A DNA stretch of 64,000 nucleotides from Cypionkella psychrotolerans (lineage in GTDB: Bacteria > Pseudomonadota > Alphaproteobacteria > Rhodobacterales > Rhodobacteraceae), in assembly GCF_001294535.1 (NCBI RefSeq), contig NZ_LGIC01000006.1:62001-126000 (forward strand), given 5' to 3'. The translations under genes and the position numbers were made by a program. Of this stretch, positions 27,954 to 55,189 are shown piece by piece. The notes below the pieces were generated by a model. The model had not been told where the DNA came from, ran no database searches, and saw nothing but the letters and a program-made list of their open reading frames with translations. Each line of letters starts with the position of its first letter. Position 1 is the stretch's first letter.

Positions 27954-27969
27954 ATTTCAAGCTTGAAAT
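27954..27969. promoter_or_regulatory. Palindromic operator ATTTCAAGCTTGAAAT upstream of kynU
   Basis: Perfect 16-bp palindrome 66 bp before the kynU start. The same sequence, extended to 18 bp, lies in the divergent promoter of the anthranilate-CoA cluster (55172-55189), next to which a MarR regulator is encoded. The right half contains TTGAAA, a possible -35 element. Confidence 0.75.
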
Positions 27970-27991
27970 TTTAACCATCCTCGGCTATTGC
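27963..27991 (+). promoter_or_regulatory. Candidate kynU promoter overlapping the operator
   Basis: TTGAAA (27963-27968), 17 bases, then TATTGC (27986-27991). The -10 match is weak (three of six), but the -35 lies within the palindrome, the expected layout for repression by occlusion. Confidence 0.4.
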
Positions 27992-28035
27992 CTCGCGCAA
28001 AGCAAACCTGCAACCTGCTCGAAACAGAGGCCGCC

Positions 28036-29229
28036 ATGACCGATTTCGCCACCACCAAAGCCCAGTTCCAGCTGCCTGCGGGCATGATCTATCTGGACGG
28101 CAACTCGCTGGGCCCCCTGCCGCGCGCAACCGCCGCTCGGGTGGCGCAGACGGTCGAGGCTGAATGGGGCGATTTGCTGATCACCGCTTGGAACAAGGCG
28201 GCGTGGATGGACAAACCGATGCGCGTCGGCGACCGCATTGCGCGGCTGATCGGGGCCGAGGCTGGCCATGTGGTGATGGGCGACACTTTGTCGATCAAGG
28301 TCTATCAGGCGCTTGCCTCGTGTTTGGAGATGAACCCGACCCGGAAAGTGATCCTGTCCGACACCGGCAACTTCCCCTCTGATCTCTACATGGCCGAGGG
28401 GCTCTGCCGCACCTTGGGCAACGGCTACACGCTGAAAACCGTCGCCCCCGAGGACGTTCTGGACGCAATCGACGACAGCGTGGCCGTCACCATGATCACC
28501 GAAGTCGATTACCGCACCGGACGCCGTCACGACATGGCCGCGATCACCGCCCGCGCCCACCAGCATGGCGCGCTCACCATCTGGGATCTGGCGCACTCCG
28601 CAGGGGCCTTCCAAGTCGAACTGGCCAAATGCAACGCCGACTTCGCGGTCGGCTGCACCTATAAATACCTCAACTCCGGCCCCGGCGGCCCGGCGTTTAT
28701 CTACGTCGCCCCCCGCCATGCCGATACCGCCCGCCCGGCGCTTTCGGGCTGGCAAGGCCACGCCGCGCCCTTCGCCTTCGATCTCGACTACCGCCCCGCA
28801 ACCGGGGCCGAACGGATGCGCGTCGGCACCCCGCCGATCCTGCAACTGGCAGCGCTAGAGGCCTCGCTGGATATCTGGGACACGGTGGATATGCAGGACC
28901 TGCGGGCAGCCTCTCTCAAACTACAAGACCAATACATCGCAGGCATTGAAGCCGCCTGCCCCAGCCTGACCCTCGCCACGCCCCGCAACCACCAAGATCG
29001 CGGTAGCCAAGTCTCGTTCCGTCACCCCGAAGGCTACGCCATCATGCAAGCCATGATTGCCCGCGGCGTGATCGGCGATTTCCGCGCCCCCGACATCATC
29101 CGCTGCGGCTTCACACCCTTGTTCATTGACGCCGCCGACGTTGAAAAGGCGATCAAAATCATCGCCGACATCATGCAAAACAACCTCTGGGACCGCCCAG
29201 ACTACAAAACCCGCGCGAAAGTCACCTGA
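28036..29229 (+). CDS. kynU: Kynureninase
   Basis: PLP enzyme that hydrolyses L-kynurenine to anthranilate and alanine. The 397-residue protein opens with IYLDGNSLGPLPRAT, a kynureninase hallmark, and has ITEVDYRTGRRHDM, WDLAHSAGAF and the PLP-lysine region GCTYKYLNSGPGGPAFIYV. The ATG at 28036 follows AGAGG; the frame is open to 27988 without conserved content. It is the first gene after the palindromic operator and is followed, after a hairpin of repeats, by kynA. No kynurenine formamidase gene is present between them. Confidence 0.96.
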   Translation: MTDFATTKAQFQLPAGMIYLDGNSLGPLPRATAARVAQTVEAEWGDLLITAWNKAAWMDKPMRVGDRIARLIGAEAGHVVMGDTLSIKVYQALASCLEMNPTRKVILSDTGNFPSDLYMAEGLCRTLGNGYTLKTVAPEDVLDAIDDSVAVTMITEVDYRTGRRHDMAAITARAHQHGALTIWDLAHSAGAFQVELAKCNADFAVGCTYKYLNSGPGGPAFIYVAPRHADTARPALSGWQGHAAPFAFDLDYRPATGAERMRVGTPPILQLAALEASLDIWDTVDMQDLRAASLKLQDQYIAGIEAACPSLTLATPRNHQDRGSQVSFRHPEGYAIMQAMIARGVIGDFRAPDIIRCGFTPLFIDAADVEKAIKIIADIMQNNLWDRPDYKTRAKVT

Positions 29230-29241
29230 TGCCTTCGGCTT

Positions 29242-29325
29242 TCATCTTGGCAAAAATATCCCCGCCGGAGGCTCCTCGGCCCATCGCCGAAGCCTCCGGC
29301 GGGGATATTTTGACCAATGTGAAAG
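29242..29325. repeat. Inverted pair of dispersed repeats forming a long hairpin between kynU and kynA
   Basis: Two opposed copies create a perfect 21-bp inverted repeat (29253-29273 with 29291-29311). The loop itself has a further TCGGC/GCCGA stem, and TTCATCTTGG and CCAATGTGAAAG flank the pair. It is the most stable structure seen in the window and lies between two co-directional genes. Confidence 0.85.
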
Positions 29326-29468
29326 CCACAAGTGCAGCCCTCTGCCGCCCCGCTGGCTGGATCGCCCAGTGGCGCACCATTGGCAATCTTTCGGTGCTGA
29401 ACTGCCAAACTCATTCCTGCGCCTGACGCCCCATTCGGGGAAAACCCAAATGACAGGAGAGAATGACC

Positions 29469-30368
29469 ATGACCCCCAATCCAAAATCTGGCGATCCCAA
29501 ATCCACCGACGAAAAATCCGGCTGCCCGATACACGCGGCCCCCTACAACCCGGCAACCGAAGGCGCGCAAATGTCGTTCGACGGCCGGATGTCCTACGGC
29601 GACTATCTGCACATCGACCAGATCCTATCCGCCCAGCGGCAACTCACCCCGGCGCATGACGAGATGTTGTTCATCATCCAGCACCAAACCTCCGAGCTCT
29701 GGATGAAGCTGGCGCTGCACGAGTTGAACGCCGCCCGCCAAACCATCGCCGCAGGCCGCGCGCCGGAAGCGTTCAAGATGCTCGCCCGGATTTCCCGGAT
29801 TTTTGAGCAGTTGAACAACGCCTGGGACGTGCTGCGCACCATGACGCCGTCGGATTACACCACGTTCCGCGAAGGTTTGGGGCAGTCGTCGGGGTTTCAG
29901 AGCTGGCAATACCGCCTGATCGAATACGCCGTCGGCAACCGCAACCTGGCGATGCTGAAACCGCACGCCCACCGCGCCGACCTCACCGCCCTGTTGGAAG
30001 CCGAACTCGCCCGCCCCAGCCTGTACGACGAAGCCCTGCGCCACCTCGCTCGCGCGGGCCTGCCGGTGCCCGAAGACGTGCTGAACCGCGATCTGCGCCA
30101 GCCTTGGGTGGTGCATGAAGGTGTGCAGCGGGTGTGGGAAACCGTCTACCGCGATCCCACGCAATACTGGCAGGCCTATGAACTGGCCGAGAAACTGGTC
30201 GATTTCGAAGATTATTTCCGCCGCTGGCGCTTCAATCATGTGACCACGGTTGAACGCGTCATCGGGTTGAAACGCGGTACAGGTGGAACTGGCGGCGTGA
30301 GTTACCTGCGCCGGATGCTGGATGTAGAGCTGTTCCCCGAACTCTGGCATCTGCGCACGACTCTGTAA
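29469..30368 (+). CDS. kynA: Tryptophan 2,3-dioxygenase
   Basis: Heme enzyme that opens the indole ring of L-tryptophan to N-formylkynurenine. The family heme and substrate regions are visible: [25 protein letters not shown] with the distal His, and [16 protein letters not shown] with the proximal His, followed by [13 protein letters not shown]. Two in-frame ATGs lie at 29463 and 29469. The second was chosen because AGGAGA at 29455-29460 is then 8 bases away; it gives 299 residues. The Cys-containing N-terminal extension (about 30 residues) is variable in the family. It acts before kynU in the pathway. Confidence 0.96.
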
Positions 30369-30457
30369 CGGCGCACCATATGCTCGAGCCTGTGGCGCGG
30401 CCCTGATGCAAGCAATCCCACGACCTTGTGATTATACATATATTGGAAACAAGGGCT

Positions 30458-30486
30458 TTGACCTTGCTTTTCAGCTCCACTAGCGT
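30458..30486 (+). promoter_or_regulatory. Candidate sigma-70 promoter of the L,D-transpeptidase gene
   Basis: TTGACC (30458-30463), 17 bases, then TAGCGT (30481-30486), about 60 bases upstream of the start codon. Confidence 0.45.
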
Positions 30487-30502
30487 CTTTACAAGAGAAT
30501 CT

Positions 30503-30528
30503 GGGCGGCACCTCTCTGCCGCCCCATT
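30503..30528 (+). terminator. Terminator-like hairpin in the leader of the L,D-transpeptidase gene
   Basis: GGGCGGCA-CCTCTC-TGCCGCCC followed by CATTTTG. It may end kynA transcription or attenuate the next gene, since it sits between the predicted promoter and the start codon. Confidence 0.5.
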
Positions 30529-30545
30529 TTGTGATAGGCTGACGG

Positions 30546-31625
30546 ATGCGTTTTTTGACGGTTAAACTTCTGGCAGCGACAGCTTTGTCGCTGACACTCG
30601 CGGCCTGCGTGCCGGGCACAACCCTTCCCGGAGCGCCCGCCGCTGTCGCACAAGCCCCGGTGCCAACCGACAATGCGCTGCATTATGCGGGCGTCAGCGA
30701 TGACGGCAAAACTGTGCCGACGGTGCCGGTCGAGAAAGTGCCGCCGGAATTCCAGGTGCAGCAGGTCGATTATACCAGCGCCGAAGCGGTCGGCACCATC
30801 ATCATCGCGCCGTCAGAGCGCCACCTCTATTATGTCAACGGCAAGAACACCGCGCTGCGCTACGGCATCGCTGTCGGTCGGGCGGGCTTCCAATGGGCAG
30901 GCGTCGCCAATATCACCAGCCGCACGCATTGGCCGAAATGGACGCCGCCGCCAGAAATGATCGACCGTCACCCCGAGCTTGCGAAATGGGAAAAGGGCCA
31001 GCCCGGCGGGCCGACCAACCCGCTGGGCGCGCGGGCTTTGTATCTGACCACCAATGGGGTGGATTACGGCTACCGCATCCACGGCACACCCGAATGGTTT
31101 TCGATCGGCAAAAACGCCTCGTCCGGCTGTATCCGCATGATCAACCAAGACGTGATGGATCTCTACAACCGCGTGCAGGATGGCGCCAAGGTTGTGGTGC
31201 TGAACGCCGACGGCAGCTATCCCGACAAACTGAAACTGCCGCCGCCTGCGCCGAAGAAGAAAAAACCCGCACCCGCCCCGGTTGAGGCCGTGGCCCCCGT
31301 GCTGAGCGCGACCCCAACCATGCTACCGGGTGCCACGACCTTGCCCGCAGCACCTGCGGCGACAATTACCCCGGCTGAGGCATCGCCTGCCGCAACCGTG
31401 GCCCCGGATGCGACCATGGCTCCCGCCGCGACGATGGCCCCTGCGGCAGCGACCACCGCTCCGGCGGCAACTGCTCCAGTGGTTACAGCGCCCGATGCAA
31501 CCGCTCCCGTGGCGACAACGCCAGCAGTGACCGCTCCGGCAGCGACAACAGCGCCTGCGGTGACGGCTCCAGCCCCTGCCGTCTGCGCCGTGCCCTTGGT
31601 CAACGGCCTCTGCCCACAGCCGTAA
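30546..31625 (+). CDS. L,D-transpeptidase (YkuD family), probable lipoprotein
   Basis: Periplasmic enzyme that cross-links peptidoglycan stems or attaches proteins to them. Residues 1-20 form a lipoprotein-type signal with the lipobox LAAC. The YkuD domain spans about residues 80-225 and ends with the catalytic motif seen as HGTPEWFSIGKNASSGCIRM, containing the His and Cys. The last 130 residues are an Ala/Pro/Thr-rich low-complexity tail after a KKKKPAP stretch, probably a flexible wall-spanning linker. The final residues contain two cysteines (CAVPLVNGLC). A strong terminator follows. Confidence 0.9.
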   Translation: MRFLTVKLLAATALSLTLAACVPGTTLPGAPAAVAQAPVPTDNALHYAGVSDDGKTVPTVPVEKVPPEFQVQQVDYTSAEAVGTIIIAPSERHLYYVNGKNTALRYGIAVGRAGFQWAGVANITSRTHWPKWTPPPEMIDRHPELAKWEKGQPGGPTNPLGARALYLTTNGVDYGYRIHGTPEWFSIGKNASSGCIRMINQDVMDLYNRVQDGAKVVVLNADGSYPDKLKLPPPAPKKKKPAPAPVEAVAPVLSATPTMLPGATTLPAAPAATITPAEASPAATVAPDATMAPAATMAPAAATTAPAATAPVVTAPDATAPVATTPAVTAPAATTAPAVTAPAPAVCAVPLVNGLCPQP

Positions 31626-31644
31626 GCGGAACACCCCAGCCAAC

Positions 31645-31679
31645 AAAAAAACCCGCCTCAGACTGAGGCGGGTTTTTTC
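31645..31679. terminator. Strong bidirectional Rho-independent terminator
   Basis: AAAAAA then CCCGCCTCA-GAC-TGAGGCGGG then TTTTTT. It lies between the convergent L,D-transpeptidase and lyxose isomerase-like genes and has A and T tracts on both sides. Confidence 0.92.
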
Positions 31680-31700
31680 ATGCTTAGATTTCCGACAGGC

Positions 31701-32384
31701 TCACAACCACTTATCGTAATCGCTGACCAGCAGATGCGTCGGCGCGACGTCTTCCTCAATATCGGCAAAGCGCCCAATCGGTTCGCGGAACACGTTGTCA
31801 GTGACATCGTCGTTCACCGTCGAGACCTCGCCGATCAACACATCACCGCCCTCGCCCCAGAACGCATGCCAATCGCCCGGCATCAGCGTCACAGATTCCC
31901 CCGGCGCGAGTTTCAGCTTGTCGCCCGGCTTGTAAGGCCGCTCAATACCATCGCAATGCACCAGCCCACCGCGATCCGCCGCCCAGTTGCCTTTGTCGTC
32001 CGAACCATAAAGTTCAACCACCAAAGTCGCCCCGCCCCGGTTGATGATATCCTCGGCCTTAATGACATGGGTGTGCATCGGCGACAGCTGATCCTGCCGC
32101 GAAATCAATAGCTTCTCGGCATAGCACATGCCGCCGCCGCGTTGCAGATCAGCGAGTGAGCCGTTGCGCAAGGTGAACAAAAATAGCCCCATCTGATCAA
32201 AGCGGCCTTGGCCGTAATCGGTGATGTCCCAGCCACAACGGCCCTCAATCACCCGCGATGCAATCGGTTTATTCGCCTTGAACTCATTCGGCGACCAGTT
32301 GGCAAACGGCGGCAAGACAAAGCCATAATGGCGCACCATATCCTCTGCCCCAGCCATAATCTCATTAATACGCGACCGCTTCAT
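31701..32384 (-). CDS. D-lyxose ketol-isomerase-like cupin protein
   Basis: 227-residue single-domain cupin resembling D-lyxose isomerases, which interconvert D-lyxose and D-xylulose. Metal-ligand regions are visible as LSPMHTHVIKAEDIINRGG (His and Glu) and LMPGDWHAFWGEGGD. The ATG at 32384 is preceded by GGAGGG; the frame is open to 32444 without conserved content. No sugar transporter or kinase is adjacent, so the physiological substrate is open. The upstream spacer carries two striking palindromes. Confidence 0.82.
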   Translation of the reverse strand: MKRSRINEIMAGAEDMVRHYGFVLPPFANWSPNEFKANKPIASRVIEGRCGWDITDYGQGRFDQMGLFLFTLRNGSLADLQRGGGMCYAEKLLISRQDQLSPMHTHVIKAEDIINRGGATLVVELYGSDDKGNWAADRGGLVHCDGIERPYKPGDKLKLAPGESVTLMPGDWHAFWGEGGDVLIGEVSTVNDDVTDNVFREPIGRFADIEEDVAPTHLLVSDYDKWL

Positions 32385-32452
32385 CTTCACCCTCCCAAGA
32401 ATCTGCCCGCAGTATACCGCCAATGTTTGCGCCAACAACGGCAAACCGGGCG

Positions 32453-32495
32453 CGGAATTCGCGCGAATTCCGGCACGATTTTCGCGCGAAAATCG
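32453..32495. promoter_or_regulatory. Twin 20-bp perfect palindromes, candidate operators
   Basis: CGGAATTCGCGCGAATTCCG (32453-32472) and CGATTTTCGCGCGAAAATCG (32476-32495) are both perfect and share the core TTCGCGCGAA. The centres are 23 bp apart. They lie about 70-110 bp upstream of the lyxose isomerase-like start and directly after the stop of the small gene at 32497, so they may be operators or tandem terminator hairpins. Confidence 0.6.
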
Positions 32496-32496
32496 C

Positions 32497-32724
32497 CTAC
32501 GTTAAACGCCGGATCGGTTCATTGTTGCAGAAAATCACAAACTGCCCGGCATTTTCTACCACCGGAAATCCCCGCCGCTTGGCTTCGCTCAGAAATGCCT
32601 CACGTCCAATGTAACGCTCGACATCCCGAACCTTACGCCGGACAATCGCGCCACTCATCGCAGCTTGAGAGCCAAACAGCTCCAAGAAAAATTGCTGAGG
32701 ACTGATCGGGGGCAAAGCGGACAT
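32497..32724 (-). CDS. Small conserved-looking protein of unknown function
   Basis: 75 residues, basic centre (VRRKVRDVERYIGREAFLSE) and an end resembling GFPVVENAGQFVIFCN. I recall similar small proteins in Rhodobacterales, sometimes misnamed phosphoribosylanthranilate isomerase, but I cannot assign a function. Codon use looks coding and the GC distribution matches neighbours. It lies 33 bp downstream of the end of no obvious partner: the amidotransferase-like gene upstream starts at 33534 and ends at 32758, so the two could be co-transcribed. Confidence 0.65.
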   Translation of the reverse strand: MSALPPISPQQFFLELFGSQAAMSGAIVRRKVRDVERYIGREAFLSEAKRRGFPVVENAGQFVIFCNNEPIRRLT

Positions 32725-32757
32725 GCAAACATCCTGCCGCGCTTTGGTTAAAAATCC

Positions 32758-33534
32758 CTAAACGCGCACCGCCCAAGCCCGCACCGCATCACCAAACGCG
32801 GTGAACAACGGCCGCGACACCGGATCATTCGCCGCATTCCACTCCGGGTGCCACTGCACCGACAGCGTAAACCCCGGCGCGCCCTGCACATACAAAGCCT
32901 CCGGCGTGCCATCCGGTGCCACGCCGTCAATCACAATCCGGCCGCCCACCCGCGCCACACCCTGCCCGTGCAGCGTATTGGTCATCACCTCAGACGCCCC
33001 CATCAGCCGCGCAAACACCCCGCCTTCGGTGAATTTCACCACATGGCGGTGCGCGAACACCTCCTCCATCGTGCCATCCGGCGGCATCCGGTGGTTCAAC
33101 CGCCCCGGCAGATCGCGGATCTCGGGGTAAAGCGAGCCGCCCATCGCCACATTGACCTCTTGAAACCCCCGGCACACACCCAAAAACGGCTGGCCACTTT
33201 CCACACAAGCCCGGATCAGCGGCAACGTGATCGCATCACGCCCGCGGTCAAAGGCGCCATGCGCCGGGGTTTCCGGCTCGCCATATTCATCGGGATGCAC
33301 ATTGGGCCGCCCGCCGGTCAACAAAAATCCATCACAGACCGCCATCAGATCAGCGACCGAGACAAACCTAGGATCAGCCGGCACGATAAGCGGCACACAG
33401 CCCGCCACCTCCGCCACCGCTTCCGAGTTGATATGCCCGGCGGCATGCACCTCATAGCGCTCATTCATGGTATGGGCGTTGCCGATGATCCCGACAACGG
33501 GGCGGCGCGCGGCATTTGACGTAGCGGAGGGCAT
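32758..33534 (-). CDS. Class-I glutamine amidotransferase-like hydrolase (PuuD/peptidase C26 type)
   Basis: 258-residue enzyme of the gamma-glutamyl hydrolase type, which in PuuD releases GABA from gamma-glutamyl-GABA in putrescine breakdown. The nucleophile elbow is FLGVCRGFQEVNVAMGGSLY and the His/Glu part SVQWHPEWN; LLTGGRPNVHPDEYG is typical of this subfamily. The ATG at 33534 is where conserved sequence starts; the frame is open to 33681. No other Puu genes are nearby, so the substrate is not certain. Confidence 0.85.
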   Translation of the reverse strand: MPSATSNAARRPVVGIIGNAHTMNERYEVHAAGHINSEAVAEVAGCVPLIVPADPRFVSVADLMAVCDGFLLTGGRPNVHPDEYGEPETPAHGAFDRGRDAITLPLIRACVESGQPFLGVCRGFQEVNVAMGGSLYPEIRDLPGRLNHRMPPDGTMEEVFAHRHVVKFTEGGVFARLMGASEVMTNTLHGQGVARVGGRIVIDGVAPDGTPEALYVQGAPGFTLSVQWHPEWNAANDPVSRPLFTAFGDAVRAWAVRV

Positions 33535-33811
33535 GACGGGCCTGCATTGCAATTTCACCCTATCATAGCAGCGCCCCCGGCAGGGTGAAGGCCGAAACTC
33601 CCCGCAACCGGGCTCCATCCGCAAATCCGCGTGATTTTTAAGCAGACCGCCCGAAACCGTAGCACAACAGCCATCCGCCACAACCGGAACCTATAGTCTC
33701 AACCCAAGCCCATCCCCGGCAGAATGTCGCAAACAGGCTGGACCGCCGCAGCCCGCGCCCCTAGACAGAACCAAACGCCCCTCCGGGCAATCCGCTGCAG
33801 GACGCCAGACC

Positions 33812-34643
33812 ATGCCCCGCCCGCCCACCGCGCCGCTGATTGGCGTTGCCTTCATGCTGGGGGCGATGGCCAGCCTGCCTTTCATCGACGTGTTCGCCAA
33901 GTTCCTCGGCCAGCAAGGCGTGCCGGTGCTGCAAATAGTCTGGGCCCGGCTCAGCGTCGGCGCGCTGGTGGCCCTGCCCTTCGCGCTCAGCCATCGCGGC
34001 CCAAAAGGCCTGATCCCCGACCGCCCAGTCTATCACGGATTGCGCGCCACCTTCCTGATCCTCGCCACCTTCTGCTTCTTTCTATCGCTGAAATTCCTGC
34101 CGATCGCCGATGCGCTGGCGATCTTCTTCGTGCAGCCGCTGGTGGTTACGGTGCTGTCGGCACTGGTGCTGAAAGAAGCCGTGCCGCGCAACCGCTGGGC
34201 CGCCGTCGCCGTGGGCTTTGCGGGCACCTTGATCATCATCCGCCCCGGCTTTGTCGCCCTCAATCCCGGCAGCCTGTTGGCCCTCGCCGCAGGCACCTTC
34301 CTTGCGATCTATTTCGTGATGACCCGCCACATCTCGGGCCGCGCCCCCGCCATGGTCACCACCTTCCAAACCAATGCGGTGGGTGCGGTGTTTCTCAGCC
34401 TCGCGATGCCCTTCATCTGGCACACTCCAACGCCCGGCCAATGGCTGATGTGCGCAGGCCTCGCTGCTCGCCCCATTGGCTTATACTGAGATGGTGGTCG
34501 CCACCGTCGTCGGCTGGTATTTCTTCGGCGATTTCCCCGATTCCCTGACCTTCCTCGGCGTCGCCGTGCTGATCGCCTGCGCGCTTTACATCACGCTGAC
34601 CGAGCGCAACCGCACCACACCCGATGCGATAGAGCAGCCGTGA
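33812..34643 (+). pseudogene. EamA/DMT-family transporter, disrupted by an internal deletion and frame change
   Basis: The first 218 or so codons encode a normal ten-helix EamA-type permease (PRPPTAPLIGVAFMLGAMAS onwards) up to QWLMCAGLA, after which the frame reads ARPIGLY and stops at 34489. The last part of the family continues in another frame from about 34464 (LLAPLAYTEMVVATVVGWYF) to a stop at 34643. About 25-30 residues that normally connect these parts, roughly membrane helix 9, are missing. This points to a deletion of non-triplet length near 34455-34470. The product would lack its C-terminal membrane part and is probably non-functional. Confidence 0.8.
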
Positions 34644-34725
34644 TTTCTTCATGTAATAGATGAGTTTCTGGCAACAAGATACTGATGTAGAACAACCATA
34701 TCCGATCATCCAATGCACTTCCGGC

Positions 34726-34758
34726 TTTCACATTGGCTTAAATATCCCCGCCGGAGGC
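34726..34758. repeat. Dispersed repeat, orientation A
   Basis: A full-length copy: TTTCACATTGGCTTAAATAT followed by CCCCGCCGGAGGC. It lies between the EamA pseudogene and the convergent sulfotransferase gene. The rest of this 172-bp gap shows nothing else. Confidence 0.8.
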
Positions 34759-34815
34759 GCACATCTCCGCAAACACTGCATTAGAATACCATTCCCCCAG
34801 CACCATAAACCTGTG

Positions 34816-35571
34816 CTAGCCCTGCGCCGCCAGATCCAGCCGATACTGCCGCATCCAGTCCGTACTCACCGCATCCGCCAGTTTCGCTACCCCCGGTCGC
34901 AAACTGGCCGCGACAGGCTCCACCACGCCCAAAGCCGCACAAATCCGCGCCACCTCTGCCACCGGATCGGCAGCGAGGCTGTCATAGGAAATCCGCAACG
35001 GCGCAATGCCCTGCGCTGCAAACCAGTGCAACCAAGCCGCATCGAGCGCCTGCAACTCCGCCACCACCGCCCTGATCCGCGCGAAATCATACCGAGGCTT
35101 TTGCGGCGGCGACAGCCGCTCCGCCTCCGACCCATCCGGCCCGATATGCCACAACCCGCTCTGCTCGGCTTTGATCAAGGACACCGCCTGCGCCAGCTTG
35201 TCCGCACGGCTCAGATGCACAAACAGCACCTCGCCAAACGCCGCCCGCAGCCGTGCGCGGTCCGAAGCCAGCCCCGGATAAACCGCGCCAATCATCCGCG
35301 CCACGTCGCCCAGATTCTCCCGCATCAACCGCAAGCCAAACACTCCGGTCTGCCCCGAACCCGCCTTGATCGCAGCGGCCAAATACGCCGCACCATAAGC
35401 CGCGTCGCTCAGATCACTACGCTCCGGCAAGTCCCAAGCCCGTGCCCAAACCGGGTCCACATCGCGCATAAAAAACGAATCCGGCGCGCCCGCCGCTTTC
35501 GTCGCCGCCAACACATCACACAGCAACGTGCTGCCACTGCGCGGCGTGCCACAGATGATATAGCTTTTCAC
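34816..35571 (-). CDS. Stf0-type sulfotransferase
   Basis: 251-residue protein with the PAPS-binding 5'-phosphosulfate loop IICGTPRSGSTLLCDVL at the N-terminus and a 3'-phosphate region near LFVHLSRADKLAQAVSLIKA, as in Stf0 (trehalose 2-sulfotransferase-like) proteins. It would transfer sulfate from PAPS to a sugar or other hydroxyl acceptor in the cytoplasm. The acceptor cannot be predicted. No sulfation genes are adjacent. Confidence 0.82.
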   Translation of the reverse strand: MKSYIICGTPRSGSTLLCDVLAATKAAGAPDSFFMRDVDPVWARAWDLPERSDLSDAAYGAAYLAAAIKAGSGQTGVFGLRLMRENLGDVARMIGAVYPGLASDRARLRAAFGEVLFVHLSRADKLAQAVSLIKAEQSGLWHIGPDGSEAERLSPPQKPRYDFARIRAVVAELQALDAAWLHWFAAQGIAPLRISYDSLAADPVAEVARICAALGVVEPVAASLRPGVAKLADAVSTDWMRQYRLDLAAQG

Positions 35572-35670
35572 CAGAACTTGCCTCTCTCTGCAGGCTCCCA
35601 GATACGCCGCCAGCCTGACAGTTGAAGACCTGTATCGCTGCCCGGAAAAACCAACTCCAGGAGTTGCTCT

Positions 35671-35699
35671 CTTAGAAATACTCCCGCCGGAGGCTCCCC
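35671..35699. repeat. Dispersed repeat, variant AAATACTCCCGCCGGAGGC
   Basis: Orientation A variant in the gap between the sulfotransferase start and the GFA gene end. A small hairpin CAACTCC-A-GGAGTTG lies just before it. Confidence 0.7.
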
Positions 35700-35777
35700 C
35701 ATGACGTCAAAGCCCCTCGCTCCGCAGCCATCGCCCGGCAGCGCGGCCGAGGCCGCCCCGCCGTCTCAAACACCCGC

Positions 35778-37804: not shown

Positions 37805-37950
37805 GTCAGGCTCCAAATACAAACCTGACATGGCTACCCGGACCGATATGCCGCGTCAATCGCCAGCGGCAACGCCCCGCCCGCAGCCGCAGCTACGCTT
37901 GCCCTCACCGCCTGCGCAAGCTAGACCAAACCAGCCATTCGCAATCGAAA

Positions 37951-39711: not shown

Positions 39712-39714
39712 CCT

Positions 39715-43647: not shown

Positions 43648-43675
43648 CTTACACCTTAAGCAGATCTGAAACGGC

Positions 43676-45782: not shown

Positions 45783-45891
45783 ATGGCTAAACTCACCAGT
45801 CTAGATTGCGTCTCTTTTGTCTTGCCACATCTGACCCGACAGAGCAACGCCCCATCGCATCCGCGCATAGATTGTGACGGGGTGTTGCCCG

Positions 45892-46878: not shown

Positions 46879-47043
46879 ATGAACTGCCTAAAACCGGGCC
46901 AGAATTTGCCGAGCAGGCCTGCAATGCAAGGAAATTTATCGACGGCTGTTTCAAAGAAATTTTTCCGGTAAGCCCGGATCGCAACCCATGATTAACCCAT
47001 CCGCCTCCATCCTCTCCCTGCACAGCCGCAACAGGAGAATCCG

Positions 47044-47214
47044 ATGCAAAACCTCAGCCCCGCCGATGAACTCTGCGAAATCCGCGCCGCCGTCGCGCGC
47101 CTGCAGGCGCGCGAGGCCAGCCTTTGCGCCGTGTTACAACAAGCTGCGCAAAACCCATCGCGGCCTATCCCGCGCCCCGGCTGGCCGATCCGGCGCGAAG
47201 CCGCCCTGCACTAA
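47044..47214 (+). CDS. Small helical protein of unknown function
   Basis: 56 residues beginning MQNLSPADELCEIRAAVARL, with a coiled-coil-like heptad pattern and a basic, Pro-rich end. A good AGGAGA lies 5 bases before the ATG. From memory, similar short proteins with PADEL.EIRAEI..L.ARE occur in Rhodobacteraceae. The 3' end overlaps the convergent CoA ligase gene by 4 bases. Confidence 0.5.
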   Translation: MQNLSPADELCEIRAAVARLQAREASLCAVLQQAAQNPSRPIPRPGWPIRREAALH

Positions 47215-48845
47215 GCCCCGTCGCGCAGCCGGAACCGCTGGATTTTGCCAGTCTGCGTCTTCGGCAAAGCCTGCACGAACTGCACGGAACGCGGATATTT
47301 ATACGGCGCAATCACTCGTTTGACGTGATCTTGCAACGTCTTCACCATCAAAGCATCGCCCAAACGGCCCTGCGCCAGCACCACATGCGCTTCGACAATT
47401 TGGCCGCGCTCTTCATCCGCCCGCCCGATCACCGCGCACTCCAGCACATCGGGATGCGACAGCAGTGCCGCCTCTACCTCTGGCCCGGCAATGTTATAGC
47501 CCGCCGAGATAATCATATCATCCGAGCGCGCCGCAAAATGAAACCGCCCGTCCTCGTCCTGCCAAAAGCTGTCCCCGGTCAGGTTCCAGCCGTCCTTCAC
47601 GTATTTCGCCTGCCGATCATCCGCCAGATAGCGACACCCGGTCGGCCCGCGCACCGCCAGCCGCCCCACTTCGCCGCGCGGCAGTTCTGCCATATCGGGT
47701 CCCACAATCCGCGCTTCATAGCCGTTGACCGGACGCCCGGTGCAGCCCGGCCGATGATCCTCAAACCGATTGGTCAGGAAAATATGCAGCATCTCCGTGG
47801 CGCCAATGCCATCCAGCATCGGCTTACCGGTCTTCGCCATCCACTCCTCATACACCGGCGCTGGCAGCGTTTCCCCCGCGCTGACCGCCGCCCGCAGCGA
47901 CGATAAATCCGCCCCCTCCGCCATCGCCTTCAGCATCACCCGATACGCCGTCGGAGCCGTAAAACACACCGTCGCCTTATGGGTCTGGATCAACTCAATC
48001 ATATTGCCGGGCGTCGCCTGCTCCAACAACGCTGCCGCCGCGCCAAACCGCAACGGAAACACCGCGAGCCCCCCCAGACCAAAGGTGAACGCCAACGGCG
48101 GCGAGCCTACAAACACATCCTCGGGCACGACATTCAGCACTTCCTTCGCGTAGCCATCCGCAATAATCAGAATATCGCGGTGAAACGCCATCGCGCCCTT
48201 CGGCTCGCCAGTCGTTCCCGAGGTAAACCCGATCAGCGCCACATCATCGCGCCCCACCGGCGGCGGGTTAAACCGCACCGATTTCGACAAAGCCGCGCGA
48301 TCCAGTTCCGCGTCATGGTTCGCCGTGCCATCAAACCCCACCACGGTTTTCAGAAAGCGCGAGGTCTTGGCGCAAGTCACCAATTCCTCCATCAACCGCG
48401 TGTCGCACAGGGCCAAAGCGATCTCAGCCTTATCGACAATCTGCGCAAGCTCCCCAGCTCGCAGCATCGGCATGGTGTTGACCACCACCGCCCCGGCCTT
48501 GGTCGCGGCCAACCAGCACGCCACCATCGCTGGGTTATTGGCAGATCGAATAAGCACACGATTACCGGGTCTTACGTCGTAATCCTCAACCAACACATGA
48601 GCCAGGCGGTTCGACCAATCGGTCAGTTCTTTATAGGTGCGTTGCCGCCCGTTGCCGATCAACGCCGTGTTGTCCCCAAAGCCCTTTTCGACCATTTTAT
48701 CGGTCAACTCGACAGCAGCATTCAGATATTCGGGGTAGTCAAAACCTTCCAACAGAAACTCGGGCTGCTGATCGAGGCGCGGCAGACGATCCCGCGTGAA
48801 CGTATCGCTATGTCCTGACGGCCCGAGTTTTGAGTGTTCGGACAT
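47211..48845 (-). CDS. 2-aminobenzoate-CoA ligase (benzoate-CoA ligase family)
   Basis: 544-residue AMP-forming acyl-CoA synthetase that would activate anthranilate to 2-aminobenzoyl-CoA. Core motifs are FTSGTTGEPKGAMAFHRDIL, the acyl-site GIGATEMLHIFL, LTGDSFWQDEDGRFHFAARS and the C-terminal lysine in PKTQTGKIQRFRLR. Family membership is clear from sequence; the anthranilate substrate is inferred from the cluster. The ATG at 48845 follows GGAGGG by 6 bases and overlaps the RidA stop. It is the last gene of the eight-gene operon. Confidence 0.88.
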   Translation of the reverse strand: MSEHSKLGPSGHSDTFTRDRLPRLDQQPEFLLEGFDYPEYLNAAVELTDKMVEKGFGDNTALIGNGRQRTYKELTDWSNRLAHVLVEDYDVRPGNRVLIRSANNPAMVACWLAATKAGAVVVNTMPMLRAGELAQIVDKAEIALALCDTRLMEELVTCAKTSRFLKTVVGFDGTANHDAELDRAALSKSVRFNPPPVGRDDVALIGFTSGTTGEPKGAMAFHRDILIIADGYAKEVLNVVPEDVFVGSPPLAFTFGLGGLAVFPLRFGAAAALLEQATPGNMIELIQTHKATVCFTAPTAYRVMLKAMAEGADLSSLRAAVSAGETLPAPVYEEWMAKTGKPMLDGIGATEMLHIFLTNRFEDHRPGCTGRPVNGYEARIVGPDMAELPRGEVGRLAVRGPTGCRYLADDRQAKYVKDGWNLTGDSFWQDEDGRFHFAARSDDMIISAGYNIAGPEVEAALLSHPDVLECAVIGRADEERGQIVEAHVVLAQGRLGDALMVKTLQDHVKRVIAPYKYPRSVQFVQALPKTQTGKIQRFRLRDGA

Positions 48846-49249
48846 CACATACCCTCCGGGATAACGGCGGTCGCCTCAATCTCAACTTTCGCGCGATCCT
48901 CGACCAAAGCCACCACCTGCACCAGCGCCATCGCCGGATAGTGCCGCCCGATCACGTCTTTATAGACCGCGCCCAAGCCCTTCAGGTTGCTGAGATATTC
49001 ATTCTTGTCGGTGACATACCAGGTCAAACGTACAAGATGCTCTGGCTTGGCCCCGGCACAGGCCAGCACCTCAGCAATGCCCCGCAAAGCCGCTTCAACC
49101 TGGCCTACGAAATCATCGGTTTCAAACTCTTGATCCGCGTTCCAACCGATCAGCCCGCCAGTGAACACCATCCGCCCCGAGGCGGCCATGCCATTGGCAT
49201 AGCCCCGCGCCGGCTTCCAGTTTTTCGGGTGCAACACCTCATGACTCAT
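48845..49249 (-). CDS. RidA/YjgF family enamine/imine deaminase
   Basis: 134-residue RidA-type protein. The family region RGYANGMAASGRMVFTGGLI and the C-terminal YPAMALVQVVAL and EDRAKVEIEATAVIP are clear. RidA hydrolyses reactive enamines and imines. In this cluster the dearomatised product of 2-aminobenzoyl-CoA is an enamine, so a pathway deamination role is a good inference. The ATG at 49249 overlaps the thioesterase stop by 4 bases. Confidence 0.92.
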   Translation of the reverse strand: MSHEVLHPKNWKPARGYANGMAASGRMVFTGGLIGWNADQEFETDDFVGQVEAALRGIAEVLACAGAKPEHLVRLTWYVTDKNEYLSNLKGLGAVYKDVIGRHYPAMALVQVVALVEDRAKVEIEATAVIPEGM

Positions 49250-49656
49250 GCCGCGTCCTCCATATATGCCACCAGCCGCGCCCGCATCGCGTCGGGCCAA
49301 GTCGCCGATTTCATGCCGTCAATCCACACCAAAGTCAGCGCCACCCGCAGCCGCAATTCCGCGCCCATATGGCCCTCGATCATAAGGCTGATCGAAGATC
49401 GCCCCAACTTCTCAATCCCAAGCGAAAACAACACCTTATCGCCCAGACGCGAGGGTGCGACAAACTCCGCCGCAAGCGCCACAGTTGGCACGCCATTATC
49501 CGCCCCCCGATGCATCGAGGCAAAACTGCGCCCGACCACATCGTTGAAAAAGTTCTCAACGACCGAGTTGGTCATCTCAAAATAGCGCGGATAAAACACG
49601 ATCCCGGCCGGGTCGCAGTGGTTGAACTCAATCTGAATTTCGCGGGTGTATGTCAT
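49246..49656 (-). CDS. Acyl-CoA thioesterase (4-hydroxybenzoyl-CoA thioesterase-like)
   Basis: 136-residue hot-dog-fold protein with the catalytic-loop motif [18 protein letters not shown] near residues 11-28. The usual Asp in this position is present. It would release stalled or toxic aryl- or acyl-CoA esters formed in the pathway. It overlaps its neighbours on both sides by 4 bases in the operon. Confidence 0.9.
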
Positions 49657-50789
49657 CCCAAAATACTCCGCGCGATCACGATGCGCTGCACATCTGACGC
49701 GCCCTCATAAATCCGCAACGCCCTGATTTCGCGGTACAAAGCCTCCACCGCGAAACCATGCCGCACGCCGTCGCCACCATGCAGTTGCACCGCCATGTCG
49801 ATGACTTTTTGCGCTGCTTCGGTGGCATACAGCTTGGCCATCGCGGCTTCCCTGCTGACCCGCGCCGCGCCCTGATCCTTCACCCAAGCCGCCCGGTAAA
49901 TCAGCAAGGCACTGGCATCCACCTGCAACGCCATATCCGCCAAATGCCCCTGCACCATCTGCAACTCGCTCAAGGCGCTGCCCTGAATCCGCCGCGATTG
50001 CACCCGTGCCAAAGCCTCATCCAGCGCCCTGCGTGCAAAGCCCAAAGCCGCCGCGCCAACGGTGGAGCGGAACACATCGAGCACCGACATCGCGATCTTA
50101 AAGCCATCCCCCGCCCGCCCAATCAGCGCGGTTTCCGGCAACATCACATCGCGCAACGCCAGATGCGCCAAGGGATGCGGTGCGATCACCTCAATCCGCT
50201 CCACCACAGACAGCCCCGGCGTATCCGCAGGCAGCAAAAACGCCGATAACCCCTTCGCCCCCGGAGCCTCGCCCGTGCGCGCGATGATCACATAAACATC
50301 GGCAATCCCGCCGTTCGAGATATAGGTTTTCTCGCCGTTCAGCACCCAACCCTGCGGCCCCAGAACCGCAGTGGTGGAGGTCGCCGCCACATCCGACCCC
50401 GACGCAGGCTCGGTCAAAGCAAAGCCCGAAATCGCCGTCCCCGCCCGCGTCCGCACCAGCCATTCGCGCTGTAAGTCCGAGCCGAACAGCGACACCGCCC
50501 CCATGCCAAGTCCCTGCATCGCGAAGGTAAAATCTGCCAGCCCATCATGCCGCGCCAAAGTCTCGCGGATCAGGCACAGGCTCCGCACGTCCAGCTTTTC
50601 GCCTAGCGCAGCCCCCGAGTGCTGCAACCATCCGCCCGCCCCCAGCATCGCCACCAGCCCCCGGCAAGCCGCATCGACATCGCCATGATCGACGGGCAGA
50701 TGCGCCCCTGCCCAAGCCTCCAAAGCCACCACCAACGCCCGGTGGCGGTCTTCAAAAAACGGCCAGCTTAGGAAACTCTGATCCGACAT
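49653..50789 (-). CDS. Acyl-CoA dehydrogenase
   Basis: 378-residue FAD enzyme that introduces an alpha-beta double bond in an acyl-CoA. The family signatures [18 protein letters not shown] and [20 protein letters not shown] are present. In the cluster it probably acts on ring-opened acyl-CoA intermediates. It overlaps the thioesterase gene by 4 bases; the 66-bp gap before it is the only sizeable one in the operon and holds a repeat copy. Confidence 0.92.
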
Positions 50790-50791
50790 AG

Positions 50792-50841
50792 CTCATCCTC
50801 TGCGCTCAAATATCCCGGGGTCCGGGGCAGCGCCCCGGGGC
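50792..50841. repeat. Dispersed repeat, subtype with CCGGGGC hairpin, inside the operon
   Basis: TCATCCTCTGCGCTCAAATA followed by TCCCGGGGT and CCGGGGCAGCGCCCCGG. It is the same subtype as at 11276-11327 and lies between the enoyl-CoA hydratase stop and the acyl-CoA dehydrogenase start. Confidence 0.75.
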
Positions 50842-50855
50842 TTGCAGCAAGCGCC

Positions 50856-51665
50856 TTAATTCCCCGCGAAAACCGGCTTTTCCTTAGCTACAAACGCTCG
50901 ATAAGCGCGCTCAAAATCTTTCGTCTGCATACAGATCGCCTGCGCCTGCGCTTCCGCTTCTATCGCCGCCAGCAGCCCCATATCCCATTCCTGCAGCAGT
51001 TGCGTCTTGGTCACGCCATGCGCAAAGCACGGTCCCGCCGCCAAGCGCCGCGCCAGAACCAGCGCCTCGGCTTCCAACGCATCCGCCCCGTGCAAAGCGT
51101 TCCAGAACCCCCAGCGTTCACCCTCGGCAGCCGTCATCACCCGGCCAGTATAGAGCAATTCCGCCGCCCGCCCCTGCCCGATGATCCGTGGCAGCATCGC
51201 ACAAGCCCCCATATCGCAGCCCGCCAGTCCCACCCGGGTGAACAGGAATGCGCATTTCGCTTCCGGCGTCGCCAGCCGCAGATCAGCCGCCATCGCAAGG
51301 ATCGCCCCCGCTCCGACAGCCACGCCATCCACCGCCGCAATCACCGGTTTCCCGCAGGAAATCATCGCCTTAACCAGATCCCCGGTCATCCGGGTGAACG
51401 CCAGCAAGTCTTTCATCGGCAGCCCGATCAGCGGCCCGATGATGTCATGCACATCGCCGCCCGAGCAGAAATTGCCGCCATTGGACGCGAAAACCACCAC
51501 ATCGACATCCTCCGCATAAACCAGATCGCGGAACAGATCGCGCAACTCGGCATAGCTCTCAAACGTCAAAGGGTTCTTGCGCTCGGGCCGGTTCAGCCGC
51601 AGCACCGCCACCCGGTCGGTGACTTCCCACAGAAAATGCGCAGGCTTAAAATCCGCCAGTTTCAT
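50856..51665 (-). CDS. Enoyl-CoA hydratase family protein
   Basis: 269-residue crotonase-fold protein. The oxyanion-hole parts are [14 protein letters not shown] and [20 protein letters not shown], followed by [15 protein letters not shown]. It could hydrate an enoyl-CoA or catalyse a ring-opening C-C hydrolysis, as related enzymes do. The ATG overlaps the MarR stop by 4 bases. Confidence 0.92.
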
Positions 51666-52093
51666 GCCTTAGCCATCCTTTTCAAAATCTCGGTCAGCGC
51701 GTCCAAATCCGCCTCGGTCAGCCCAGAAAACATCCGATCCACCGCGCGCTCATGATCCGCCGCCAACCCCTCAAAATCCGCCAAACCGCGTGGCGTCAGC
51801 GCCACAAACACCGTGCGGCGGTCCTGATCGCTTTGGGTCCGCAGAACGAGGCCGTCTTTTTCCAGCCGGTCCACCACCGCCGTCGCATTGCCATTCGAGA
51901 CCAGCAGCATCCGCGACAATTCACTCATCGTCACACCATCGCGCCGCCGATACAGCGCCGCCAGCACGTCAAAACGCGGCAACGTGGTGTCGTGCTTCAC
52001 CCGCAAAAACTCGCGCAGATGCGACTCCGAGGCCCGAGTCACCCCCAGCATCCGGATCCACATCTTCAGACGGCGTTTCGACAACTCGCTCAC
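51662..52093 (-). CDS. MarR-family transcriptional regulator
   Basis: 143-residue winged helix-turn-helix protein. The recognition part is [20 protein letters not shown] and the wing [19 protein letters not shown]. Members that control aromatic-acid pathways often bind aryl-CoA and dissociate from palindromic operators. It is encoded within the operon it probably controls, overlapping both neighbours. The best candidate site is the palindrome at 55172-55189, with a second at 27954-27969 before kynU. Confidence 0.93.
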
Positions 52094-52845
52094 AATTCGC
52101 CCCCCGCAATGGTTAACGCCTGCCCGTTCACGCCCTCCGACCCCGCCCCACAGAGAAACAACGCCATCGCCGTGACTTCCGAGGGCGCAATCAGCCGCCC
52201 CTGCGGGTTCATTCCGGCCAAAACCGCCCGCGACTCGACCAAGGTTTTCCCGGTCTTCTCGGCAATCACCTCAACCGAGTGATCCGTCATCGGCGTATCC
52301 AGAAAACCCGGACAGATCGCATTCACCGTCACCGGGCGCTTGGCGATTTCCAAAGCCAAAGACCGCGTCAACCCAACCACCCCATGCTTTGCCGCCGCAT
52401 AGGGCGCGACCTTGGCATAGCCCTTCAACCCTGCCGTTGAGGCCACCGAGATCAACCGCCCCCAGCCCGGCATCTGGTTCAAACCATCGCGCAGGGTCAA
52501 AAATACCCCCGTTAGATTGACCGCCAGCATCGCGTTCCACTGGGCAAGCGAGGTCTTCGCCATCACCGTCGAATCCGCGGCCCCGGCATTGGCGATCACC
52601 ACATCACAAGGCCCAGCAGCGGCGAACATCGCCCGAACCGAGGCTTCATCCGTCACATCCGCCTGCACCGCGCGGATCCCCGGCACCTGTGCAACAACCG
52701 CCTGCAACGCCTCCAGCCTGCGCCCGGCGATCACCACCTCGGCCCCGGCTTGCGCAAAGCCCAAAGCAAGATTTTCCCCCGCACCGGAACCGCCGCCGGT
52801 GATCAGAACGCGTTTGCCTGCAAGAGTCATACCCGGCCCACTCAT
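52090..52845 (-). CDS. SDR-family oxidoreductase
   Basis: 251-residue short-chain dehydrogenase. The cofactor motif [20 protein letters not shown] is near residues 13-32, the NAG-type motif is [10 protein letters not shown], and the catalytic [11 protein letters not shown] follows a Ser in [10 protein letters not shown]. It probably oxidises or reduces a hydroxy/keto group of a pathway intermediate. The ATG overlaps the stop of the monooxygenase/reductase gene as ATGA. Confidence 0.92.
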
Positions 52846-55124
52846 ACCCGGATCACGCCTTCCGATTTCTGCACCAACCGCCGGGCCTGATCACGCCCGG
52901 CAAGGTAGGGCTTCGGCCATTCCGTGCCGCTATCGCCCAGCGCCACCGACTGATGCAGTGTCCAATAGGGGTCCGCCAGATGTGCCCGCGCGAGGCAGAC
53001 CAAATCCGCCCGCCCTGCCAACAAGATCTGGTTCACCTGATCGGCCTCGGTGATATTGCCCACCGCCATCGTCGCCAATCCGGCCTCATTCTTGATCCGG
53101 TCCGAGAACGGCGTCTGGAACATCCGGCCATACACAGGCTTGGCATCCGTCGAGGTCTGCCCCGCCGATACGTCAATAATATCAGCGCCTTCCGCAGCAA
53201 ACATCTGTGCAATCTGCACCGCCTCGACAGGCGTCACGCCGCCTTCCGCCCAGTCATGCGCAGAAATCCGCACCGACATCGGCTTATGCCCCGGCCAATA
53301 GCGTCGCATCTCGCGGAACACTTCCAGCGGATAACGCATCCGGTTTTCCAAGCTGCCGCCGTATTCATCTTCCCGCATATTCGACAATGGCGAGATGAAG
53401 GACGAGATCAAATACCCATGCGCTGCATGCAGCTCGATCATGTCGAAATCCGCGCCCTCGGCCATTTCCGTGGCCTTGATGAACTGACGCAACACCGCGT
53501 CCATATCGTCACGGTCCATCGCCTTCGGCACCTGATTGCCCGCCTGCCACGGGATCGCCGAAGCCGACAGCAGCGGCCAATTGCCCGACACCAACGGTGC
53601 ATCCGCATCCGCCCAGCCAACTTGCGTCGAGCCTTTGCGGCCCGAATGGCCAATCTGGCAGCAGGTCTTGGCCTTCGTCTCGGCATGGATGAAATCGTTG
53701 ATCTTCTTCCAAGCCAGTTCATGCTTCGGCGTATAAAGCCCGGTGCAGCCCGGCGTGATCCGGCCATGCGCCGACACACAGGTCATCTCGGTATAAACCA
53801 GCCCAGCGCCGCCCTTGGCGCGTTCGGCGTAATGGACAAAATGCCAATCGGTCGGAACACCTTCGACCGCGCGATACTGCGCCATCGGCGACACCACCAC
53901 GCGGTTTTCCAGCGTCATGCCGCGCAACTGAAACGGCGTGAACATCGGCGTGCGCCCCGGCGCGCCACCATATTGCGCCGCAAACCAATCCTCGGCAGAA
54001 CGCAGCCAAGCCGGATCGCGCATCCGCAGGTTCTCATGGCTGATCCGTTGCGAACGGGTCAGCAGCGAATAGGCAAACTGCGGCGCGGGCATGTCCAGGT
54101 AACGCTCGACCTCTTCAAACCACTCCAGCGAATTGCGCGCCGCCGATTGCAGCCGCAACACTTCCACGCGGCGCTCTGCCTGATAGCGCTCAAACGCCGC
54201 CTGCATCGTCGATTCCGAGTGCAGGTATTCCGCCAAAGCAATCGCACTATCAAACGCCAAACGGCTGCCGGATCCAATCGAGAAATGCCCCGTCGCCGCC
54301 GCATCCCCCATCAGCACCACGTTTTCATGATACCACTGCTGGCAAATCACCCGCGGGAACTGCATCCACACCGCCGAGCCGCGCAAATGCGCTGCATTCG
54401 ACATCAGATCATGGCCGCCCAAATGCCGTTCAAAGATCTTGCGGCAAGTCTCAACGGTTTCCTCTTTGGTCATCGTCTCAAAGCCCCACAGCTCCCATGT
54501 GTCGGGATGGCATTCGACGATGAAGGTCGCGGTATCCTTGTCAAACTGGTAGACATGCGCCCAAACCCAGCCGTATTCGGTCTTCTCGAAGATGAAACTA
54601 AAGGCGTCGTCGAACTTGGCATGGGTGCCAAGCCAAACGAACTTGCACTTGCGCACATCAATATCCGGCTTGAACACATCCGCATATTCGCGGCGCACGA
54701 GACTGTTGATGCCATCCGTCGCCACCACCAGATCATAGTCTTTGCGGTATTCTTCGGCTGACTTGAACTCGGCCTCAAACCGCAGATCGACGCCCAACTC
54801 CCGCGCCCGCGCTTGCAGCAAGACCAGTAGCGCTTTCCGCCCGATCCCGGCAAAGCCATGCCCACCCGAAACCGTGCGCACGCCATTATGCACCACCGCA
54901 ATGTCGTCCCAATAGGCGAACTGGCTGCGGATCGCTTCGGTGCTGACCGGATCATTCTTCGCCATCCGCCCCAGCGCGTCATCCGACAGCACCACGCCCC
55001 AACCGAAGGTGTCATTGGCCTTGTTGCGCTCCATCACCACAACCTCGTGGCTGGCATCGCGCAGCTTCATCGAGATCGCGAAATACAAGCCCGCCGGACC
55101 ACCGCCCAAACACAGAACCTTCAT
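52842..55124 (-). CDS. 2-aminobenzoyl-CoA monooxygenase/reductase (two-domain flavoprotein)
   Basis: 760-residue fusion. Residues 1-385 form an FAD aromatic hydroxylase related to salicylyl-CoA 5-hydroxylase ([15 protein letters not shown] at 7-21, [29 protein letters not shown]). Residues about 395-750 form an old-yellow-enzyme-type FMN reductase ([50 protein letters not shown]). This arrangement is that of the Azoarcus enzyme that hydroxylates and then reduces 2-aminobenzoyl-CoA, destroying aromaticity without ring oxygenation. GGAGGGG precedes the ATG. It is the first gene of the eight-gene minus operon, 48 bp from the palindromic operator. Confidence 0.9.
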
Positions 55125-55171
55125 GGCAACCCCTCCAATGCGTTTGGTTTAGCCTGCCACCAGACCAAAAC

Positions 55172-55189
55172 AATTTCAAGCTTGAAATT
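55172..55189. promoter_or_regulatory. Palindromic operator AATTTCAAGCTTGAAATT in the divergent promoter
   Basis: Perfect 18-bp palindrome, with a third half-site CTTGAAATTTT at 55195-55205. Its core is identical to the kynU site at 27954-27969. On both strands the outer part supplies TTGAAA, a possible -35 element for each divergent operon. It is the likely target of the MarR regulator encoded at 51662-52093. Confidence 0.78.

Follow-up and report, generated by a model that had tools for sequence, protein, structure and literature searches.

Several described repressors of the MarR family control pathways that run through coenzyme A (CoA) thioesters. BadR, as portrayed in the accessible part of its account, represses such a pathway in Aromatoleum sp. 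CIB and Rhodopseudomonas palustris and has the first CoA intermediate as its effector; in Aromatoleum its palindromic operators lie between two divergent operons, over predicted −35 boxes (PMC9795900). CouR and FerC are released from DNA by CoA thioesters and, like HcaR, regulate hydroxycinnamate pathways, according to the excerpted text of PMC5487221. The MarR-family regulators of auxin catabolism, IacR among them, likewise govern the breakdown of indole-derived aromatics, with different gene clusters, in the excerpt available (PMC9613470). Here we describe a comparable system in a 64,000-nucleotide stretch of Cypionkella psychrotolerans (contig NZ_LGIC01000006.1, positions 62,001 to 126,000), called the window below and numbered from its first letter. 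A palindrome, ATTTCAAGCTTGAAAT, precedes the kynureninase gene kynU and recurs between the divergent operons of a 2-aminobenzoyl-CoA cluster, a candidate route for anthranilate that encodes its own MarR regulator. The likeness to BadR covers regulator family, operator placement and −35 overlap; the operator core differs (CAAN4TTG against CAAGCTTG in Cypionkella), and BadR serves a cyclohexane carboxylate pathway, which the available part of its account does not connect with the catabolism of amino acids (PMC9795900). The regulon is new, of a kind already known. No description of this MarR regulator or its operator was found in open-licence PMC text, from which subscription papers may differ, and the operator sequence, in three spellings, had no literature match.

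Perfect 16-bp copies of the palindrome stand at 27954-27969, before kynU (operator O1), and at 55173-55188, between the divergent operons, where it extends to a perfect 18 bp (operator O2, 55172-55189). A sequence-only reading of the window had located both. That reading saw the palindrome nowhere else in the 64 kb, which is right for perfect copies; it overlooked an imperfect copy with two mismatches, ATTTCTCGCTTGAAAT at 55187-55202 (operator O3), which overlaps O2 with centers 14 bp apart. These are the three window matches with up to three mismatches to ATTTCAAGCTTGAAAT (shuffle mean 0.18), and none of 100 shuffles reached three. The 5.08-Mb genome contains exactly two perfect copies, both in the window, where about 0.0001 would be expected from base composition. 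Its one copy with a single mismatch (C33:50557, 22.6 bits) comes after an open reading frame (ORF) that reads as an exonuclease gene; no tryptophan gene was found on its 3-kb piece, and it was set aside as a regulon member for that reason. A scoring matrix was trained on promoters of ACMS, our label for the gene of the pathway's bifunctional flavin monooxygenase/OYE reductase, taken from other genera. It placed O1, O2 and O3 at the top of the window (29.9, 29.9 and 15.7 bits), the next match scoring 9.4.

We compared 15 Cypionkella genomes, several of them incomplete (75-89%), so that a missing MarR gene in those is weaker evidence. The window ACMS is 92% identical to that of C. aquatica, and its nearest named records are Cypionkella. 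The 14-bp palindrome core has 16 exact copies in 10 of the 15 genomes: eight before kynU, eight before ACMS and none elsewhere. As the sequence-only reading had anticipated, the palindrome tracks orthologs of the MarR gene, which was found in eight genomes: all eight carry at least one copy, against two of the seven others (one-sided Fisher 0.007, with relatedness ignored). O1 is present at kynU in the seven genomes that have both the MarR gene and a fetched kynU locus, with one base changed in G011, and an overlapping second operator copy is readable at all eight Cypionkella ACMS sites.

The search was widened to the order, in 244 genomes of at least 95% completeness sampled evenly from a larger set; related genomes are not independent samples, and the counts are uncorrected for phylogeny. 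The exact 14-mer core was found at 22 sites in 18 genomes, and its reversed control at none. Twelve of these sites lie 45-68 bp before an ACMS ortholog, four before kynU and one directly before kynA (G234), while G225 has two, one near a pair of genes for a pyridoxal phosphate (PLP) enzyme and an enoyl-CoA hydratase, the other near an ABC-type binding protein gene. Three sites are in genomes in which MarR was not found (G045, G105 and G162); those of G105 and G162, inside one shared coding sequence as read, were taken as chance. Across the genome and the relatives scanned, the palindrome is rare and sits at kynU and ACMS promoters, rather than being common at unrelated ones.

The motif was also recovered without prior knowledge of it. 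Palindromic expectation maximization (EM) on 89 ACMS upstream regions, unseeded and with no Cypionkella among them, returned ATTTCAAGCTTGAAAT with a log-likelihood ratio (LLR) of 948, against 62-73 for five local shuffles. On 57 kynU upstream regions from genomes with ACMS (the window's included), it gave the same core, with consensus GTTTCAAGCTTGAAAC at width 16 and TTTTAAGCTTAAAA at width 14 (LLR 295 versus 28-37 shuffled); 33 kynU upstream regions from genomes lacking ACMS gave nothing alike (LLR 42 versus 23-26 shuffled). The ACMS-trained matrix, whose 89 hits at 89 ACMS loci at 15 bits are its own training set, matched kynU at that threshold in 27 of 57 loci with ACMS versus 1 of 33 without, and at 20.6 bits in 17 of 57 versus 1 of 33. 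The sole match from a genome scored as lacking ACMS is in G242, which has a MarR gene and a 49% ACMS homolog. A second collection gave 80 named loci, part of them probably from the same genomes; a score of 15 bits is reached by 57 of the 60 whose ACMS has at least 60% identity, a group that includes records of Maritalea, Phyllobacterium, Nitratireductor and Halomonas. Judged by its distribution over these sequences, the palindrome is a real, conserved operator.

The kynurenine genes come under this operator by more than one arrangement. Genomes with ACMS number 89 (88 plus the window's), of which 69 had data on kyn genes and 20 had none and were left out. An operator of its own precedes kynU in 26 of the 69. 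In another 19, kynA and/or kynU lies inside the ACMS operon (same strand, gaps of at most 900 bp), and in two, kynA is divergent from ACMS at a distance of 96 bp and shares its operator. G232 and G249 show the operator followed by CoA ligase, kynA and kynU, and G234 has its site before kynA. Relatives that keep both gene sets were expected to conserve the link, and altogether it is seen in 50 of the 69, where kynA or kynU is under the operator, or belongs to a pathway operon headed by one. Two clusters are split. G192 has operator-ACMS-kynA in one place and, in another, operator, short-chain dehydrogenase, MarR, enoyl-CoA hydratase, acyl-CoA dehydrogenase, ligase and kynU; G016 has the latter series with kynA-kynU at its end, and only a 49% ACMS homolog elsewhere. 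In both, the piece with MarR keeps the operator and kyn genes. Read from gene order, the regulon is one that has taken in kynurenine genes in several different ways.

The MarR gene of the window lies in the cluster at 51662-52093 (− strand; PF01047 55 bits, cut-off 24.6), and its product is very probably, by sequence comparison, the protein that reads the palindrome at O1-O3. It shares with its family a winged-helix MarR domain and a palindromic operator in its own or target promoters, and with BadR- and CouR-type repressors a place inside a CoA-thioester pathway cluster: a MarR gene at least 40% identical is in the ACMS locus of 87 of the 89 relatives. In the two exceptions it lies on the same contig (G255) or in the second operator-led operon (G192), and in two loci (L070, L094) it has been relocated to face ACMS, with the operator between the two. 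The VSNGNxT motif of the recognition helix, which we take from family knowledge to be the helix that reads DNA, and the DRR of the wing each have an identity of 94% or higher in 155 MarR sequences. The AlphaFold model has a pLDDT of 93.4, and the 50 fold matches listed for it are all MarR-type by title (query TM 0.56-0.85). The closest solved relative by sequence is PDB 3boq, a MarR protein of Silicibacter pomeroyi (E 5e-17; profile E 1.4e-36); at 26% identity in the structural alignment it is too distant to be an ortholog in this group. CouR chains match far more weakly (6c28, E 6e-6; 5cyv, E 4e-5), and orthology with CouR is unlikely on these scores. The conserved residues W12, E23, R27 and H114 may line a ligand pocket. 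As a separate observation, G242 has a 20.8-bit operator-like site (L224, position 1913) near a MarR paralog gene, 31-32% identical, whose product is possibly a sister regulator reading the same site.

We consider it likely, on these comparisons, that the cluster MarR represses both kynU and the anthranilate-CoA operons through the palindrome and that 2-aminobenzoyl-CoA releases it. What was computed is the conservation of the site, its co-occurrence with MarR, the operon rearrangements and, by consensus, the overlap with −35 boxes; binding, repression and ligand are what we infer. The MarR repressor from the 2-aminobenzoyl-CoA operon would bind the palindrome WTTTYAAGCTTRAAAW, at one dimer site before kynU and at two overlapping sites in the divergent intergenic region, one per promoter. 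The TTGAAA half-sites would be −35 boxes, so that bound MarR would block RNA polymerase at all three promoters. Anthranilate made from tryptophan would be activated by the operon's own CoA ligase, and the resulting thioester, 2-aminobenzoyl-CoA, or less likely free anthranilate, would release MarR, after which the cluster and more kynureninase would be expressed together. In Cypionkella and many relatives, the two parts of the pathway are probably induced at the same time in this way.

The function of the operon leads us to favor 2-aminobenzoyl-CoA as the inducer. The most serious alternative, the weaker of the two in our judgment yet a substantial possibility, keeps the shared operator and MarR control and makes free anthranilate, kynurenine or tryptophan the inducer. 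Many MarR proteins do bind free aromatic acids, and the 50 listed fold matches include MarR proteins of Variovorax and Pseudomonas solved with salicylic, benzoic or indole acids. Against this, it is the CoA-pathway genes, rather than the kyn genes, that MarR accompanies. Although kynU is present in 227 of the 244 genomes, nine tested genomes without ACMS have no close MarR, only weak paralogs (at most 36% identical) or none, and G171 and G184 have ACMS and MarR where kynU was not found. This argues against kynurenine or tryptophan and points to a metabolite at or below anthranilate. The repressors with a similar job, CouR, FerC and BadR, sense CoA thioesters in the portions of their accounts cited above.

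Another possibility, which we find improbable, is that the cluster MarR acts on its own operon alone and that another protein, either a MarR paralog or an unrelated factor, recognizes the kynU site. MarR binding is itself something we infer, and G008 and G014, the two Cypionkella genomes that have the palindrome although MarR was not found in them, keep it at kynU (their assemblies are in 270 and 520 contigs and 95% and 82% complete). The other five genomes without MarR have no copy, and their aligned kynU promoters show the site lost or decayed along with the regulator, with a remnant of 8.8 bits in G013 and no site in G001, G002, G009 and G010. That 32 of the 33 kynU loci from genomes lacking ACMS have no site also speaks against a separate reader, as does the ability of a matrix built from ACMS promoters to pick out kynU sites.

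The position of the operators bears on the sign of the control. From sequence we propose a kynU promoter at 27963-27991 (+ strand), in which the −35 box TTGAAA is the right half of O1 and is followed by a 17-bp spacer and TATTGC (27986-27991). At the cluster, the right half of O3 supplies the −35 of a divergent-operon promoter, TTGAAA-16-CATAGT (55196-55223, + strand), the only promoter-like site in a consensus scan of 54900-55400 (shuffle mean 0.0, sd 0.2), and on the − strand the ACMS promoter is proposed to take its −35 from a half-site of O2. Thus the two overlapping operators each appear to lie over the −35 of one of the divergent promoters. Of 89 ACMS promoters, 46% have a hexamer starting with TA 16 or 17 bp after TTGAAA, and no other spacer in the 10-27 range exceeds 4%; at the 12 measurable kynU loci the best −10 match is likewise at a spacer of 17, with TA in 25%. 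By consensus, then, the operators overlap the −35 regions of their targets, which points to repression. Slightly less probable even than a separate reader is that MarR is an activator, or that the palindrome is a promoter element under selection of its own, with no repression. Its conservation would indeed be partly promoter conservation, the TTGAAA half-site being the proposed −35, and the scoring matrix was made symmetric and hence is no test of arm conservation beyond it. Nevertheless the palindrome stands out past the −35 arm, since kynU and ACMS promoters repeatedly carry exact 16- and 14-mers that include both arms, and overlap with the −35 is the classic position of a repressor. Chance or a dispersed repeat, for which two copies in 64 kb alone could have left some room, is ruled out by the shuffles, by the genome-wide expectation and by the placement of all 16 genus sites at kynU or ACMS promoters.

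Several further points, like the persistence of the site in G008 and G014, weigh against MarR repression of both gene sets as proposed. The consensus scan gave one of the three proposed promoters, those of kynU and ACMS not being listed. The 15-bit threshold was chosen after the scores had been seen (the rate in control windows is 0.34%). The site thins outside close relatives, since 9 of the 20 named loci with an ACMS below 60% identity reach 15 bits. No link between kyn genes and operator was found in 19 of the 69 genomes, in eight of which kynA was not seen in the first fetched pieces. Control of kynA by O1 is doubtful in the window, where a strong hairpin intervenes between kynU and kynA. 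The NCBIfam name for the family of the ACMS protein (NF006101) is salicylyl-CoA 5-hydroxylase, and the substrate assigned here therefore rests on gene linkage; the presence of kynA and/or kynU inside the ACMS operon of 19 genomes favors anthranilate.

The cluster has two enzymes expected of the 2-aminobenzoyl-CoA pathway, a dedicated aryl-CoA ligase and the bifunctional flavin monooxygenase/OYE reductase; from established knowledge, together with the kyn linkage, we take it to be the aerobic form of that pathway. Its minus-strand genes mostly overlap at their ends. ACMS (52842-55124; NF006101 1254 bits, cut-off 1078) encodes a bifunctional aryl-CoA monooxygenase/oxidoreductase of the 2-aminobenzoyl-CoA monooxygenase/reductase type, with PF00724 (OYE-type reductase) and FAD_binding_3 domains. 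On the same strand are genes for a short-chain dehydrogenase (52090-52845), the MarR regulator, an enoyl-CoA hydratase (50856-51665; NF006107 468.5 bits, cut-off 330), an acyl-CoA dehydrogenase (49653-50789), a 4HBT thioesterase (49246-49656; PF03061, PF13279), a RidA/L-PSP family protein (48845-49300; PF01042) and a benzoate-CoA ligase-like aryl-CoA ligase (47211-48848), probably a 2-aminobenzoate-CoA ligase (ACBL), whose TIGR02262 score of 358 bits falls just below the cut-off of 375. The divergent operon (+ strand) encodes a second enoyl-CoA hydratase (55230-55988), a 3-hydroxyacyl-CoA dehydrogenase (55985-57112, start codon inferred) and a kynureninase-like class-V PLP enzyme (57109-58242; PF00266; TIGR01814 85.8 bits, below the cut-off of 246). 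Both dehydrogenases of the minus strand and the first two genes of the divergent operon were assigned by family-library scan. The PLP enzyme has a 63% homolog in G225 (L085), with an exact palindrome of its own next to a gene for an enoyl-CoA hydratase.

At the other locus, kynU (28036-29229, + strand; TIGR01814 293 bits, cut-off 246) encodes the kynureninase that makes anthranilate, and kynA (29463-30368, + strand; TIGR03036 420.7 bits, cut-off 390.7) a tryptophan 2,3-dioxygenase. Family-library scans bear out the earlier annotations of kynU, kynA, MarR and the pathway genes. The intervening hairpin (29235-29330, + strand) is very stable and terminator-like (−71.3 kcal/mol, z −12.4), and by eye it is at the same place in all of the Cypionkella loci that have both genes on the fetched piece, 9 of 13. 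It lies before kynA, and direct operator control is therefore supported for kynU only. The sequence-only reading had one repressor controlling tryptophan breakdown from end to end. Comparative genomics does join the kynurenine genes to the anthranilate-CoA cluster through the operator; "end to end" is too strong, given the hairpin, the lack of a formamidase gene among the 32 window ORFs scanned against family libraries and the 19 unlinked relatives among 69. The hairpin is itself a dispersed repeat: its GC-rich form (GCCTCCGGCGGGGATATTT arms) has nine window matches at up to two mismatches (shuffle mean 0.00), with copies, besides this one, at 13516, 34740, 35676, 40495, 58303 and 59855-59912, directly after gene ends, and is probably a recycled terminator.

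Weaker matches were examined for a wider regulon. A degenerate pattern, with up to two mismatches allowed, matched the C. psychrotolerans genome 16 times, and its reversed control 8 times; eight other loci were viewed, of which two looked useful and are kept as candidates only. One is P0006, a branched-chain-type ABC substrate-binding protein (L338 165-1352; C35:16237-17424), whose gene lies close to that of a GbdR-like AraC regulator. Of the 14 Cypionkella genomes with the P0006 gene, five show an operator-like site at −164, and all five have MarR. In G225 an exact site stands some 160 bp upstream of a gene for an ABC-type binding protein, whose identity to P0006 is only 25%. The other candidate is the cupin protein P0007 (L335 1578-2645; C65:23289-24356), whose N-terminal part is VOC-like by eye and has no Pfam match; its operator-like site, at −49 to −77, is found in 7 of 14 Cypionkella genomes with the gene (six with MarR, plus G014), effectively 7 of 13, as the G009 upstream region was not properly placed. 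A broader reading, which we offer tentatively and rate at somewhat under an even chance, takes 2-aminobenzoyl-CoA as a checkpoint, such that the supply from tryptophan to anthranilate would open only when the downstream CoA route already runs. Lineages would have reached this coupling by several routes: an operator captured in front of kynU or kynA, kyn genes placed inside the operon, a divergent operator held in common, and a split cluster whose pieces each keep the operator. The Cypionkella regulon, together with the ABC binding protein and the cupin, would then form a tryptophan/anthranilate scavenging system.

The shared operator and the repeated operon fusions are evidence, at the level of genomes, that in many relatives the genes for kynurenine and for anthranilate-CoA act as one pathway. 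They also point to what the bifunctional monooxygenase, named for salicylyl-CoA in NCBIfam, acts on, and they pair a MarR regulator, unnamed as far as we found, with a predicted operator. If 2-aminobenzoyl-CoA is indeed its inducer, the system could possibly serve as a biosensor for anthranilate or tryptophan.

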